Assembly: GCA_030616165.1 (NCBI GenBank)
Contig: JAUWXV010000135.1
Coordinates: forward strand, 1 to 9,878
DNA from: a bacterium
GTDB taxonomy: Bacteria; SM23-31; JAUVVT01
Direction of reading: 5' to 3'
Length of the DNA: 9,878 nucleotides
The notes under the pieces were generated by a model. The model had not been told where the DNA came from, searched no databases, and saw only the letters and a program-made list of their open reading frames with translations. Made by a program: the position numbers and the translations under genes. The stretch's first letter is position 1, and each line of letters begins with the position of its first letter. Below, in pieces: positions 4,080 to 9,878 of the stretch.

Positions 4080-5513
4080 TTAGATTCGGTCTCTCTTTGG
4101 GCGATATAAATGTGTACTTTGACCGAAAAATACTTCAGCGGCTTCCATAATTGTTTCTGAAAGAGTTGGATGTGGATGAATGGTCAACATAATATCCGAA
4201 ACTAACGCTGCCATTTCTATAGCAAGCACACCTTCTGAAATTAATTCCCCTGCGCCGGTTCCAGTAATTCCAACTCCAAAAATTCGTTTTGTATCAGGCT
4301 CGATAATTAATTTGGTTAAGCCATCACTTCGCCCAAGAGTAATCGCTCGACCTGAAGCTCCCCAAGGAAACTTCGCTATTTCAACCCTGAGATTTTCTTC
4401 CCTTGCCTGTGTTTCAGTTAAACCGCACCAGGCAATTTCCGGGTCAGTAAATACTACTGCCGGAATTGCACGAGGTTCAAAAGCAACCTTATACCCGGCA
4501 ATTGTTTCCACGGCTGTTCGTGCTTCATGAGAGGCTTTGTGTGCCAACATCGGTTCACCAACTACATCCCCAACCGCGTATATTGATGGCTCAGCGGTCT
4601 GACGCTGTTTATTTACTTTTATAAATCCGTTGTTATCGATTTCTACTTTGGTATTCTCCAAACCAAGATTATTAGAATTGGGTTTACGACCCACAGAAAT
4701 AAGAACTTTCTCATATAAATTTTCCTTTTTCTCTAAGCCTTCTCCCTCAAATTTAACTTTAATGCCATTTTTCTGGACTTTCATCTCCGCAACAGTAGTA
4801 TTCAGCATAATTGTTTCAAAAAGATTTTCTATTCGTTTAGATAGAACGGAAACCAGGTCTCGATCTACACCTGGCAGCAAGCCTGGCATCATCTCTACCA
4901 CTGAAACTTTGGTTCCTAAGGCAGCATATACCGTTCCCAATTCAAGTCCGATATAACCTCCTCCAACAATTAGAAGGGAGTTTGGAATATTCTCTAAATC
5001 CAATGCAGTTGTTGAGTTTAAAACGCGCGAAGAGTCAACAGACAAATCTGGAATATCTGCAGGATGCGAACCAGTAGCAAGAATAGCGTGCTTAAAGGAC
5101 AATTGTTCGGAATTACCTTCACCTTTTTTAACTTGTAGTGTATTGGCATCAACAAAAATCGCCTTTCCTTGAATATAATCAATTTTTCGCCGCCTGCAAA
5201 GTTGTCCCAACCCGCTGGTCAATTTTTCAACCACATTATCTTTCCACGAGCGCATTTTATCAAGGTCAACCTTAGGCTTGGAAAATTCGATTCCCCAATC
5301 TTTAGCTTCTCCAGAATTTGTGATAAACTTTGCTGCATGCAATAAAGCCTTGGTGGGCATACAGCCCCTGTAAAGACATACGCCGCCTGGACTGGATTCA
5401 GGATCAATTAAGGTTACTTGCATGCCTAAATCAGCGGCTAAGAACGCAGCAGCATATCCACCAGGACCAGCGCCGATAACAACCAATTGCTTTGAATTCT
5501 TTTTTTCAGCCAT
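4080..5513 (-). CDS. lpdA: Dihydrolipoamide dehydrogenase (E3 subunit), 477 aa
   Basis: This FAD-dependent enzyme reoxidises dihydrolipoyl groups of the 2-oxo-acid dehydrogenase or glycine-cleavage complexes and passes electrons to NAD+. Length is normal for the family. Seen in order: the FAD-binding 'VVIGAGPGGYAAA' (11-23); the redox disulfide C46-L-Y-R-G-C51 in 'GGVCLYRGCMPTKALLH'; the NAD-binding 'LIVGGGYIGLELG' (181-193); the second FAD motif 'YAVGDV' (312-317); and the C-terminal catalytic H448-P-T-L-S-E453 in 'IHPHPTLSE'. All key residues are intact. The C-x4-C loop reads LYRG rather than the common LNVG, a known variation among E3 enzymes. E1/E2 or glycine-cleavage genes are not next to it, so the complex it serves is unknown. 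No Shine-Dalgarno precedes ATG 5513. On the minus strand a perfect TTGACA hexamer lies at 5561-5556, but the -10 opposite it is weak. It acts in the cytoplasm. Confidence 0.96.
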   Translation of the reverse strand: MAEKKNSKQLVVIGAGPGGYAAAFLAADLGMQVTLIDPESSPGGVCLYRGCMPTKALLHAAKFITNSGEAKDWGIEFSKPKVDLDKMRSWKDNVVEKLTSGLGQLCRRRKIDYIQGKAIFVDANTLQVKKGEGNSEQLSFKHAILATGSHPADIPDLSVDSSRVLNSTTALDLENIPNSLLIVGGGYIGLELGTVYAALGTKVSVVEMMPGLLPGVDRDLVSVLSKRIENLFETIMLNTTVAEMKVQKNGIKVKFEGEGLEKKENLYEKVLISVGRKPNSNNLGLENTKVEIDNNGFIKVNKQRQTAEPSIYAVGDVVGEPMLAHKASHEARTAVETIAGYKVAFEPRAIPAVVFTDPEIAWCGLTETQAREENLRVEIAKFPWGASGRAITLGRSDGLTKLIIEPDTKRIFGVGITGTGAGELISEGVLAIEMAALVSDIMLTIHPHPTLSETIMEAAEVFFGQSTHLYRPKRDRI

Positions 5514-5689
5514 GAAATAACTACGTTAATTAATTTTTTATTAATAGAAAACTTTTGTCAATGCTAAGAAGTAAGATGAAACTATCCCCCAAAATAAAGT
5601 GGGAAGTGATGTTCTAATCCCGGGGCTTTGGGACAAAATGACATAATATTGCCTATAGAACTAAATCAACACTTGTAATAAATCATATT

Positions 5690-5897
5690 ATTTAAGAAAT
5701 GCAACAATTTATTGATATTCAAACCACGGAGAAAAATTTTAATGCTTATTCCTATTCTAAAACTCTTAAATCCGGTGTAAAATATAGTCCCAAATTCGTA
5801 AGAAAGACCAGAAACTTTTTTTTCAATAGTTTTGCTATTAATAAAAAAAATTACCACTTAGATGCTTATCTTCTTATTTAAGTATGACCACCCACAT
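5690..5897 (-). pseudogene. Decayed fragment of a PorV/PorQ family gene, paralogous to the gene at 7636-8628
   Basis: On the minus strand one short frame (5857-5666) reads 'KVSGLSYEFGTIFY', 'TGFKSFRIGISIKIF', against 'KVTGLAYDFGTIFY', 'PGFRSFRVGMSIRNF' at residues 181-209 of the intact PorV-like protein. I count 20 identities in 29 residues. The DNA aligns without gaps at an offset of 2270: 5741-5820 against 8011-8090 has 64 of 80 bases identical by my count. Similarity continues to about 5897 ('gtatgaccaccc' against 'atgtgaccacct'), but there the frame is broken by TAA at 5860-5858 and by small indels. Weaker similarity may extend to about 5630 (shared acaaaat). Most differences are G to A or C to T, as expected for drift in an AT-rich genome. 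There is no signal peptide, N-terminus or C-terminal strand. It corresponds to roughly residues 158-225 of 330 and is non-functional. Confidence 0.85.
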
Positions 5898-5901
5898 AAT
5901 A

Positions 5902-5936
5902 AAAAGTCCCTCTCCCTTAAAGGGAGAGGGACTTTT
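5902..5936 (-). terminator. Strong hairpin terminator after the GH109-type gene
   Basis: Perfect 17-bp arms (aaaagtccctctccctt at 5902-5918 and its complement at 5920-5936) are separated by one base, so the real loop takes a few A/T pairs. It lies 31 nt after the stop codon at 5968. On the minus strand the stem ends in a run of T, as for Rho-independent termination. The other strand also ends in TTTT, so it could work both ways. The gtccctctccc...gggagagggac sequence resembles dispersed palindromes in many genomes, so a repeat-element origin is possible. Confidence 0.8.
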
Positions 5937-5967
5937 AGGCATCAGTAAAGGAGAGCAATAAATAGTA

Positions 5968-7320
5968 TTAATACTCATCAGTTAATCCAAATATGGGTTT
6001 ATTTTTCATCCACATCCCACGAGTAAAATCAGGGAATTCAACAGGGGTACTCCCTTTGGCAATTGATTCTTCAGAAAGTGGAGTTATCACTATCCATGCG
6101 GCAGTATCGTAAACATCAATAGGTGTAGGTATTTGTCTCTTTACACATTCGACAAAAGCACGAATTTTCAGATAACCAGCCCCGCCGTGTCCTCCCCTGA
6201 CTCCCTCCGTGCGAAATTTGTGCCATAATGGATGTTCATATTTATCAAAGTAGTCTTCTAAAGATTCCCATTCATGTGACGGACTTATTCCATCTAAATA
6301 TATTGCACTAACAAGAGCCCTGTGTTCCATCCAAAGACCTTTTGTACCATGAATTGCATATCTATTAGAATAGGGACGGGGTAGATTAGTATCATGGCTG
6401 ATCAATATCGTTTCTCCATTCTGGCATTTTATCACTGTAGTAACAATATCACCAAGTTTGAAATTTATTTTTGCATAAGGATGCTCTATTCCAACTTGAC
6501 TTACAATATATTGGTGCAAACTTCGAGATTTCGTTGCTGTTGCAGTCAAAGAAACCATTCTGTTGCCCCTGTCTGTATTAAGACAGTTTGCTATAGGACC
6601 CAGCCCATGAGTCGGATACAAATCTCCGTTTCTATTTATGGAATGATATGTTCTCCACTCGGCTTCACCCCTTGCTCCGGGACCGAAATTTATTTGTCCG
6701 GATTGTCTGCCAAACTTAAGACTACGAAGATCATGACAATAACCGCATTCACCATGTACTAATTCTCCAAATAATCCTTCCCTTACCATTCCCAGTATTG
6801 CCATAGTACTACGTTCATAACAATGGTTTTCCAGCATCATACAAGGCATACCGGATTCTTCGGAAGCTTCTATAAGGTCCCAGCATTCCTGTATTGAAGA
6901 AGCGCCCCATACTTCAGGTGCGCAGTATTTACCTGCCTTCATTGCAGCAACTGCCATGGGAGTGTGCCACAACCATGGAGTGGCAACGACAACACCATCC
7001 AAATCGTCCCGCGCTACTAACTTGTAAAAATCTTCTTCACCCGTATAACCCTCAGGCCTTCTCCTGCCGGATTTTACTACAAGGTCTATAGCGCGGTTTA
7101 ATCTTTCACTATTAATTTCACTTAAGGCAGGAACTTCAACATCTTCCATATCTAAACACATTCTTAATAATCCGGTTCCCTGGCTTCCAAGTCCTACAAA
7201 TCCCAATCTTACTTTTCGGTCGTCCTGACCAAATAAACGGATGCTGCGGGACATTGTTGCAGCTAATCCCACTGCAGCACCTGTTTTAATAAAATCTCTT
7301 CGATTCATATTTGTGCCCAT
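5968..7320 (-). CDS. Tat-exported Gfo/Idh/MocA-fold protein of GH109 type (probable NAD-dependent glycosidase), 450 aa
   Basis: The N-terminus is a twin-arginine signal (N6-R-R-D-F-I-K12, then 'TGAAVGLAAT'), so the protein is exported folded with its cofactor. A Rossmann nucleotide-binding motif follows ('RLGFVGLGSQGTG', 38-50). Later come 'VVVATPWLWHTPMAVAAM' (110-127), 'PEVWGA' (135-140), 'YCHDLR' (194-199), R223 and the signature 'NGDLYPTHGLGPIA' (231-244). The Y235-x2-H238 pair with R223 matches the arrangement I recall for catalytic residues of the GH109 alpha-N-acetylgalactosaminidase NagA. Length also fits that family (about 440-470). GH109 enzymes split glycosides by an NAD-dependent oxidation/elimination route. 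A plain sugar dehydrogenase is the alternative, and the sugar specificity cannot be read. Start: ATG 7320 has a good ribosome binding site at 7331-7340; the inner ATG (residue 5) would be too far away. A terminator before it and another after it suggest a single-gene transcript. Confidence 0.87.
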   Translation of the reverse strand: MGTNMNRRDFIKTGAAVGLAATMSRSIRLFGQDDRKVRLGFVGLGSQGTGLLRMCLDMEDVEVPALSEINSERLNRAIDLVVKSGRRRPEGYTGEEDFYKLVARDDLDGVVVATPWLWHTPMAVAAMKAGKYCAPEVWGASSIQECWDLIEASEESGMPCMMLENHCYERSTMAILGMVREGLFGELVHGECGYCHDLRSLKFGRQSGQINFGPGARGEAEWRTYHSINRNGDLYPTHGLGPIANCLNTDRGNRMVSLTATATKSRSLHQYIVSQVGIEHPYAKINFKLGDIVTTVIKCQNGETILISHDTNLPRPYSNRYAIHGTKGLWMEHRALVSAIYLDGISPSHEWESLEDYFDKYEHPLWHKFRTEGVRGGHGGAGYLKIRAFVECVKRQIPTPIDVYDTAAWIVITPLSEESIAKGSTPVEFPDFTRGMWMKNKPIFGLTDEY

Positions 7321-7340: not shown

Positions 7341-7553
7341 TAATCGTATTTTAGGAAATATCAATTAAAATAATCTGTGAAACCAATTGTAATATCAGAC
7401 ACAATGCTGCTAAATTTTTAGTTAGATAGAATATCAACCATTCTATACAATATTCAGCTTTCTTTATAATCTATATAATGTACAGCTATTTCTTTTCACT
7501 CTTCAAACCCTAATAAGCCATCATTGCCTTATAACATCAATGCTAAATAAAAA

Positions 7554-7596
7554 GATAGGGATTAACAAGAACATTTAGTTACAAGTAATCCCTATC
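7554..7596 (-). terminator. Hairpin terminator after the PorV-like gene
   Basis: Perfect 11-bp arms (gatagggatta at 7554-7564 and its complement at 7586-7596) with a 21-nt loop lie 40 nt after the stop of the minus-strand gene at 7636. On the minus strand the stem is followed directly by TTTTTATTT, as for intrinsic terminators. The loop is longer than usual, which lowers certainty a little. Confidence 0.7.
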
Positions 7597-7635
7597 ATAT
7601 TTAATAAGCATTAATATGAAAAACTTTTCTCTTCA

Positions 7636-8628
7636 TTAAAATGAAGCTCCAATAGAGATTCTGTTTACCGCATCAAAGACTCCCAAGTCACTATAGGAAT
7701 AATCAATCTTTATGCCAAATCCTCCTTCAACGGCGTATTTAATGCCAACTCCCGCAGATAGTCCCTCTTCATCGTAATTATATTTATATCCAGCACGAAG
7801 TGCTATCATATCCATATACCAGTATTCTCCCCCAATGTGAATTCTCTCTGTGTAATCACGTGGATGTACGGCATCAACTGCCAATACCAGAGATTGACTC
7901 TCCTGAAGTGACGGCACAAAATCAAAAATATCCATACCAAAACCAAGCGTAAACGTTAGCGGCAGTTCAAATGCCGTTTCCTGATATTTGAACTGTGGAG
8001 AAAAGTTTCGAATACTCATTCCTACCCTGAAACTCCTGAAGCCAGGGTAAAATATAGTTCCAAAGTCGTAAGCAAGACCGGTAACTTTGTTTTTAACAGT
8101 TTCACCATCAGGAAAAAGGTTTTCTCCCAGGTGCTGGTGTGCATATTTGATGTGACCACCTAATGTGAACTTGTCGGTCATCTGTCTTGCATATGCTAAA
8201 CCTACTGCATAGGCACCAACATCCACATCTCCCGTCTCTATAAAGCCTTTCTCGGTATCTGCAACCCGGGTGCCTATTATTTCACCATAATCACTTGTGA
8301 TAAGACTAACGCCGACGTTGCCCCAATTCCCGAAATTCTGCACAAATGCTGCAGCGTTATACTTTATGTCAACTATCCATTCCGTCCTGCTGACAAAAAT
8401 GTCAGAAGTTGAGCGCATTGCGGCTATACCGGCAGGATTATAAAACATGGCACTGGCATCATTCCCAACCATCATAAATGCCCCTCCCATAGCAGCGGGC
8501 CTGGCTCCAACATCAACCTTTAAGAACTGAAGACCGGTTTGAGCAGTCTTCTTTAAAACCGAGTGAGTGGGCATTGCAACGACCATACAGAGAAAAGCAA
8601 TGGTCAATAATAAAGTCAATTTCTTCAT
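7636..8628 (-). CDS. PorV/PorQ family outer-membrane beta-barrel protein, 330 aa
   Basis: A signal peptide is visible (residues 1 to about 23, 'MKKLTLLLTIAFLCMVV'). The family hallmark follows: 'FLKVDVGARPAAMGGAFM' and 'NDASAMFYNPAGIAAM' (about 35-71). The rest shows alternating beta strands of a FadL-like barrel and ends in phenylalanine ('NRISIGASF'), as outer-membrane proteins usually do. PorV and PorQ are outer-membrane parts of the type IX secretion system: PorV shuttles cargo from the translocon to the surface attachment complex. FCB genomes often carry many paralogs next to individual cargo genes. Here the gene follows a T9SS-type cargo gene by 77 nt in the same direction, so it is probably dedicated to that cargo (inference). 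Length is slightly short for PorV. A very strong Shine-Dalgarno (8636-8644) supports the start, and a terminator follows the stop. A decayed partial copy sits at about 5690-5897. Confidence 0.92.
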   Translation of the reverse strand: MKKLTLLLTIAFLCMVVAMPTHSVLKKTAQTGLQFLKVDVGARPAAMGGAFMMVGNDASAMFYNPAGIAAMRSTSDIFVSRTEWIVDIKYNAAAFVQNFGNWGNVGVSLITSDYGEIIGTRVADTEKGFIETGDVDVGAYAVGLAYARQMTDKFTLGGHIKYAHQHLGENLFPDGETVKNKVTGLAYDFGTIFYPGFRSFRVGMSIRNFSPQFKYQETAFELPLTFTLGFGMDIFDFVPSLQESQSLVLAVDAVHPRDYTERIHIGGEYWYMDMIALRAGYKYNYDEEGLSAGVGIKYAVEGGFGIKIDYSYSDLGVFDAVNRISIGASF

Positions 8629-8635
8629 TCTATAT

Positions 8636-8644
8636 ACCTCCTTT
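8636..8644 (-). promoter_or_regulatory. Ribosome binding site of the PorV-like gene
   Basis: The minus strand reads AAAGGAGGT, a full match to the anti-Shine-Dalgarno end of 16S rRNA, seven bases before the ATG at 8628. It lies four bases beyond the intercistronic hairpin. Confidence 0.9.
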
Positions 8645-8648
8645 TAAT

Positions 8649-8683
8649 CCCGACTCTGCCCACTTCTGGCAGACAAAGTCGGG
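8649..8683 (-). promoter_or_regulatory. Intercistronic two-tier hairpin between the T9SS cargo and PorV-like genes
   Basis: Outer arms cccgact (8649-8655) and agtcggg (8677-8683) enclose inner arms ctgcc (8656-8660) and ggcag (8668-8672), with a 7-nt loop and a 4-nt bulge on one side. It lies in the 77-nt gap, four bases upstream of the PorV-like Shine-Dalgarno site. No T-run follows on the minus strand, so it does not look like a terminator. It may stabilise or process the mRNA and set unequal expression of the two genes (inference). Confidence 0.6.
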
Positions 8684-8705
8684 AAAATTTTCTATTTTCA
8701 AATAT

Positions 8706-9878
8706 TTACCTTACTATTACGAATTTTACGAAAGTTCTCTCACCGGTTGGAGTACCTTCTGCATCAGTTTTTTCAATGAGTGCAATATAAATCCCACTAA
8801 CTATAAGTTGACCATCTTCAGTTGTTGAATGTTCATCCTCTAAATCTCCCCACGATTCATCACCAGAACCGTCAGTATGGTATAAAGTCTGGACTAAATC
8901 ACCACTTTCAGTGTAAATCTTAATAGTGCAATATCCAGGTATATCCATAAACATTATCTTATTCTCCTCACCAGGATATTGCAGGTCTTCAGCACCAATA
9001 TTGAATGGATTTGGAACAACCCTGACAGTAGAAAGAGTCCCTTCTGTTCTGGTTAGATATGCACGTCTCATTGTTGTAATATTTAAATATTTACCGCTCT
9101 CAAGGATCTCTTTTTTACCATTAACACCAGCTATATTTCCTACCCCATCATCAAAAGCAGTTACATAGTATACATATCCAATACCGCGCTTGGGTGTTTC
9201 ATCATCAAAGGTATGAGTTAGAGCATTTGCTGTACCCTGTCCACATTCAAATACAGGGTAGAAGAAAGTGCTGTCATCCGTCGGAATAGCCCTGTAAACC
9301 CTGTAGCCGGCAAAATCAGATGCTTTCTCTGACTCAGTACCATCCCATTCTATCCTTATCATATTAGGCAGTGACTTTATCTCGACTGATGGAGGAGACG
9401 GCGGGATTGGAATATTGTAATCGTTTCGAATGTTCCATTGGGAAGCCAATGCATTATTAAAGAGGGAATCCTTGCCTGTGGCAACCCAGCAATCTTTTGC
9501 CCAGTTGTTATACTCGGTCGACCAGGTATCTGCTTCATAAAGATCCGGGAATGTTTTATATTGAGGGGGCAAGTTATCTTTTACACCAAAATCATTGCCT
9601 GGCGGCGGTTCTAATGTTTCATTAAGCCATTCCCCACCTATGCGCCAGCTTTCCTTGAGCGAAATACTTCCCCATACTTGAGAATAAGCAAACCTAAGAT
9701 CCTCTCCGGGTTCTAAAGTATAAGGACCGCTGGAATTAAACTCAATTGTATGCCAACCATGCCCCCAGCCGGGAAAATCATTTATATATTTATAACCTCG
9801 CTCTTCCGGGTTCACTTCATGGTATGTTCCTGGATATGTACCCTCCATATACGGTGTCCCCTGGGAAGGGGGAAGACC
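8706..9878 (-). CDS. Secreted protein with fibronectin-III domain and T9SS-type C-terminal sorting domain, N-terminus missing
   Basis: The frame stays open to the right window edge, giving 390 visible residues; the ATG at 9848 is internal and not the start. Seen: an N-terminal part with 'FNSSGPYTLEPGEDLRFAYSQ', a beta-rich pattern common in large FCB surface proteins. Next comes a fibronectin-III-like domain at about visible residues 160-243 ('PPSVEIKSLPNMIRIEWDG', 'DFAGYRVYRA', 'YYVTAFDDGVGN'). The last hundred residues look like a type A T9SS sorting domain: 'VRVVPNPFN', 'NKIMFMDIPGYCTIKIYTES', 'GDLVQTLYHT', 'SGIYIALIE' and the end 'FVKFVIVR'. Such domains send the protein across the outer membrane and are then removed. 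No catalytic motif is visible, so the function of the main body cannot be given. Placement just before a PorV-like gene supports export by T9SS. Confidence 0.88.
   Translation of the reverse strand, partial: GLPPSQGTPYMEGTYPGTYHEVNPEERGYKYINDFPGWGHGWHTIEFNSSGPYTLEPGEDLRFAYSQVWGSISLKESWRIGGEWLNETLEPPPGNDFGVKDNLPPQYKTFPDLYEADTWSTEYNNWAKDCWVATGKDSLFNNALASQWNIRNDYNIPIPPSPPSVEIKSLPNMIRIEWDGTESEKASDFAGYRVYRAIPTDDSTFFYPVFECGQGTANALTHTFDDETPKRGIGYVYYVTAFDDGVGNIAGVNGKKEILESGKYLNITTMRRAYLTRTEGTLSTVRVVPNPFNIGAEDLQYPGEENKIMFMDIPGYCTIKIYTESGDLVQTLYHTDGSGDESWGDLEDEHSTTEDGQLIVSGIYIALIEKTDAEGTPTGERTFVKFVIVR

Follow-up and report, generated by a model that had tools for sequence, protein, structure and literature searches.

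Why does a piece of a PorV-like gene lie on the far side of a GH109-type gene from the intact copy? The question is raised by a window of 9,878 nucleotides (by window we mean the whole stretch of DNA that was analysed). In this window an intact gene for a PorV/PorQ-family outer-membrane protein of 330 aa (7636–8628, minus strand) is followed on the same strand by a GH109-type gene (5968–7320; Pfam Glyco_hydro_109_C, 245.5 bits) and by the dihydrolipoyl dehydrogenase gene lpd (4080–5513, minus strand; TIGR01350, 510.5 bits with a cut-off of 408.8), which bounds the region. An earlier note on this DNA had correctly placed a PorV remnant across the GH109-type gene from the intact copy. It took the remnant to be a decayed duplicate of the middle of the neighbouring gene and offered two histories for it, namely a tandem PorV pair split by the arrival of the GH109-type gene, or the loss of a second cargo/PorV unit from this site. 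Elsewhere in the window, a protein with a FapA N-terminal domain (Flagellar Assembly Protein A) is encoded at 1456–2946, with a sulfatase gene and a short gene of uncharacterised product nearby.

The similarity to the middle of the PorV-like gene is real. Alignment of 5401–6100 against 7501–8800 by blastn gave a significant, extended match of 5713–5832 with 7982–8102 (95/121 identical, 79% at the DNA level, one gap, E 2e-24), and tblastx paired the coding (minus) strand of the fragment with the neighbouring PorV gene at 22/38 residues in one frame and 7/9 in another (E 6e-15). In a search of the whole genome the same stretch matched PorV genes on several contigs (E 1e-16 to 1e-25), the match reaching position 5892, and global alignment to the family carried the homology to about 5897. 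The fragment thus occupies 5713–5897 on the minus strand and corresponds to residues ~157–216, or positions 469–647 of the 330-codon gene. Two details of the original description are to be amended: the offset, given as an ungapped 2270, is 2269–2270 owing to one indel, and of the proposed extent (5690–5897) the first part, 5690–5706, is not PorV and forms the end of a 70-bp repeat.

The decayed state of the fragment is evident from codon reading. There is one in-frame stop (TAA at a conserved Tyr) and there are two frameshifts, caused by an additional base within a run of T and by the loss of a single base; the gene on either side of residues ~157–216 is absent. Read with its frame breaks, the fragment gives K*EDKHLSGNFF / INSKTIEKKVSGLSYEFGTIFYTGFKSFRIGISI / NFSPWFEY, compared with KYAHQHLGENLFPDGETVKNKVTGLAYDFGTIFYPGFRSFRVGMSIRNFSPQFKY in the PorV neighbour. 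In its stop, its frameshifts, its truncation at both ends and the presence of intact homologues in the genome it resembles ordinary bacterial pseudogene remnants of multicopy families, and nothing sets it apart from them. It is therefore a real but ordinary pseudogene fragment of the multicopy PorV family, produced by ordinary gene decay.

The intact neighbour, a homologue of the fragment, belongs to the PorV/PorQ family as defined by NCBIfam NF033709 (215.6 bits over residues 30–330, cut-off 90) and by Pfam PorV (32.6, cut-off 27). It falls below the cut-offs for the T9SS PorV equivalog NF033710 (84 bits, cut-off 250), for PorQ (90, cut-off 220) and for PorV2 (62.8, cut-off 325), and thereby differs from the true members of those three groups. 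It also differs from the PorV/PorQ family in that it occurs in multicopy cassettes with a TonB-dependent-receptor-like gene. The Type A sorting domain TIGR04183 (cut-off 23) reached 16.2 bits in a related ~730-aa protein of another genome, G041, and was not found in the two own-genome proteins scanned. The link to T9SS drawn in the note stays weak. Downstream of the PorV gene, at 7510–7622, lies a palindrome-bearing intergenic sequence (AGGGATTAAC...GTAATCCCT) that recurs on contigs C67, C46, C329 (two copies) and C132, near other genes including ones of GFO/IDH/MocA type; it is perhaps a shared terminator.

The genome of this uncultured bacterium (343 contigs, 90% complete) carries at least five other dispersed copies of the PorV gene. 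Protein identity to the neighbour is 99% on contig C67, 95% on C26 and 85% on C317; copies cut by contig ends are found on C222 (98%) and C239 (95%), C44 likewise carries a copy, and C40 and C46 hold partial ones. The piece at the end of C40 comprises 83 codons; it shares 75 identical bases with the cut ends of C222 and C239, which it overlaps, and is therefore probably the end of one of these two copies. The pieces on C46, two C-terminal ones, are other PorV debris of this genome. All five own-genome units that could be read fully (C67, C26, C317, C222, C239) have the same order, a receptor-like gene of 888–1017 aa, a gene of 720–746 aa and PorV, and this order is also found in related MAGs titled KSB1 and Calditrichota. 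Two of the 888–1017-aa genes, scanned over their full length, gave a carboxypeptidase-regulatory-like domain together with TonB-receptor-like or outer-membrane barrel matches. The window contributes part of such a unit: 8706–9878 (minus strand) encodes the C-terminal portion of the ~730-aa protein, whose gene is truncated where the contig ends, and its product is 53–62% identical to full-length genes of 710–746 aa that lie just upstream of PorV in this and related genomes.

These cassettes resemble a SusC/SusD PUL in having a TonB-dependent-receptor-like protein with a carboxypeptidase-regulatory-like N domain and a second protein, and in being flanked by enzymes (sulfatase-like, alpha-galactosidase, GH109). 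They differ from it in that the ~730-aa protein has no SusD match, nor any Pfam match, in that the receptor scores 37.7 bits over the N domain when the SusC/RagA model TIGR04056 has a cut-off of 368.25, and in that the third member is a PorV-family gene; the cassette is accordingly not a SusC/SusD PUL. It probably forms a complex for substrate uptake at the surface of the cell, and polysaccharide uptake is a fair inference for its role from the enzymes encoded beside it. We found no account of it in the literature searched.

Where in this family the fragment belongs was approached through distances and a tree. Over the segment it is 73% identical to the neighbour, to C67 and to C222, 74% to C239, 72% to C26 and 68% to C317, and 60–70% to the relatives G041 and G042; it is thus about equally far (72–74%) from the neighbour and from four other copies. 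In the maximum-likelihood tree it is sister to all own-genome PorV copies, with weak support: the group of own-genome copies plus fragment has 95/92 (SH-aLRT/UFBoot), the exclusion of the fragment from the own-genome copies 86.5/73. Single sites gave a mixed signal that does not point to the neighbour. At four sites where all own-genome copies are unlike the outgroups, the fragment has the outgroup state in three and another base in one; at two others, which set the five closest copies alone apart from C317 and the outgroups, it sides with the five.

Compared codon by codon with the neighbour, the fragment shows changes at 16 first, 5 second and 21 third positions. Neutral simulations with about the same number of changes gave a mean of 14.0 second-position changes, and five or fewer in only 1 of 2000 runs (P 0.0005); its amino-acid identity (0.58) was only marginally above the simulated neutral value (0.51, P 0.06). 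The scarcity of second-position changes therefore indicates that much of the divergence took place under purifying selection and that breakage came later. The fragment mostly diverged as a working gene and then broke, a pattern which argues against its being a duplicate of the gene now beside it that simply decayed neutrally. The earlier identification as a duplicate of that gene consequently holds for the family and is not supported for the particular neighbour, because the distances to the other copies are much the same, the best tree places the fragment outside them all, and the substitutions are of coding type.

A local tandem duplicate, separated from the neighbouring PorV gene by insertion of the GH109-type gene, would explain why fragment and neighbour lie on the same strand ~1.7 kb apart, and a sister relation of the two is not rejected by the AU test (p 0.39). 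The equal distances to C67 and C222 and the substitution pattern speak against it, as does the order of the genes. In G041 (locus L103), another, distant candidate-phylum genome, a receptor-like gene, a gene of ~710 aa, PorV and GH109 follow one another as here (protein identity to the window 65–66% for PorV and 73–74% for GH109). A second locus of the genome to which the window belongs points in the same direction. The end of contig C46 carries a decayed PorV C-terminus, the same spacer as in the window and the opening codons of a GH109 gene; the start of C53 carries GH109 residues 12–239 (92% identical), 11 bp further on than the C46 end; the two appear to join into one locus. Identity to the window amounts to 76% for the C46 PorV piece, its last 40 bases left aside, and to 88% for the noncoding spacer (Fisher P 0.0016), as would be expected had recombination replaced the window PorV once the two loci had separated. 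The occurrence of the PorV–GH109 order in G041 and, decayed, at this second locus argues that the adjacency is probably old. That the GH109-type gene came to separate two tandem PorV genes is thus disfavoured and unlikely, though the arrangement may be convergent, and we regard the local duplicate as quite improbable; gene conversion of the neighbour, had it occurred, could nevertheless mask a tandem origin. As further observations on GH109-type genes, the second one (C53, positions 1–751; L065) is interrupted at residue 239, where unrelated sequence takes over beside what we take to be an HU-like gene, with a presumably integrase-like fragment ~0.9 kb further on, and a genome of the same family has three in tandem (G001, C167, 7689–11946; L104), the middle one with two stops.

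The immediate surroundings bear on two other explanations. Upstream, the fragment is bounded by an intrinsic-terminator-like hairpin that follows the GH109-type gene (5902–5936, minus strand; a 16-bp stem with a T tail, −30.8 kcal/mol, z −5.0). This palindrome was considered as a repeat element and rejected, its exact core being present once in the genome. Within a few bases of its other end, the fragment adjoins the 70-bp intergenic repeat (5637–5706), present in four copies in the genome. The others (C24:21961–22030, C36:375–444, C32:13507–13576) lie between genes, share its sharp ends and are 84–89% identical to the window copy; the consensus RNA structure is negligible (−0.55 kcal/mol). 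These sharp ends beside terminator and repeat, the lack of any cargo (~730-aa) or receptor gene debris in 5514–5967 and the signs of recombination among PorV copies would all suit a fragment copied in by ectopic recombination with a dispersed PorV copy, no full cassette ever having stood here. A recent event of this kind would leave a match of >90% to the donor, and the best matches over the whole segment are 73–74%; we hold it to be unlikely. A function for the fragment, for instance within the lpd leader or as an antisense RNA directed at PorV-family genes, might be argued from its position upstream of lpd and from ~110–120 bp at 77–81% identity to several PorV genes. There was no Rfam match, promoter-like matches were at chance level, and the intergenic stretch had no match in the 40 other genomes searched (one of the same family), nor among the plasmids searched. 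A function is therefore highly improbable, and most likely the fragment itself does nothing.

Two further possibilities were considered and set aside. An assembly artefact was rejected as the source of the fragment, which sits in unique sequence. Where the window agrees exactly with other cassette contigs, the longest such runs (117 bp at 8564–8680, 107 bp at 7637–7743) lie in or beside the PorV gene, and mis-assembly is therefore possible only for the pairing of PorV with its neighbours. At another locus compared (L105) lpd adjoins E1 and E2 genes; a broken pyruvate dehydrogenase operon was dropped as an idea, the E2 query having no match in this genome and thus giving no basis for a story of rearrangement.

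With a probability of roughly 0.75, the fragment is all that remains of a further member of the dispersed receptor-like/~730-aa/PorV cassette family. Of the two histories proposed at the outset, the better fit is the loss of a second cargo/PorV unit, given a multicopy three-gene cassette and near-equal distances to the neighbour and four other copies. Another PorV copy would have diverged as a working gene and then lost its function, and deletion from both sides would have left 185 bp between the GH109 terminator and the short intergenic repeat. The want of partner-gene traces noted above counts against a lost cassette, and we therefore only infer that a whole one once stood here and that events took this order.

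The living copies show a further pattern. Between cassettes other than that of C317, dS is 0.22–0.46 for PorV, 0.58–1.22 for the ~730-aa genes and 0.73–1.04 for the receptor genes. The C317 PorV gene differs from the others by a dS of 0.74–0.84, and codon usage alone is therefore not what holds PorV dS down. The simplest explanation suggested by these values is gene conversion, recombination or repeated replacement among the copies, with short-read assembly of repeated genes as a caveat. Tentatively, and at somewhat less than even odds, PorV copies may be kept alike by gene conversion while their partners diverge, because a single kind of outer-membrane protein has to work with all the cassettes; relics such as the present one would then be copies that escaped homogenisation and died.

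The fragment helps to show how sets of surface genes multiply, recombine and die. Its use lies in drawing attention to a surface cassette of three genes, present in many copies in a KSB1/Calditrichota-like lineage, in which PorV is uniform while its partners diverge, and this pattern bears on whether PorV-like proteins are components common to many systems of uptake or export.
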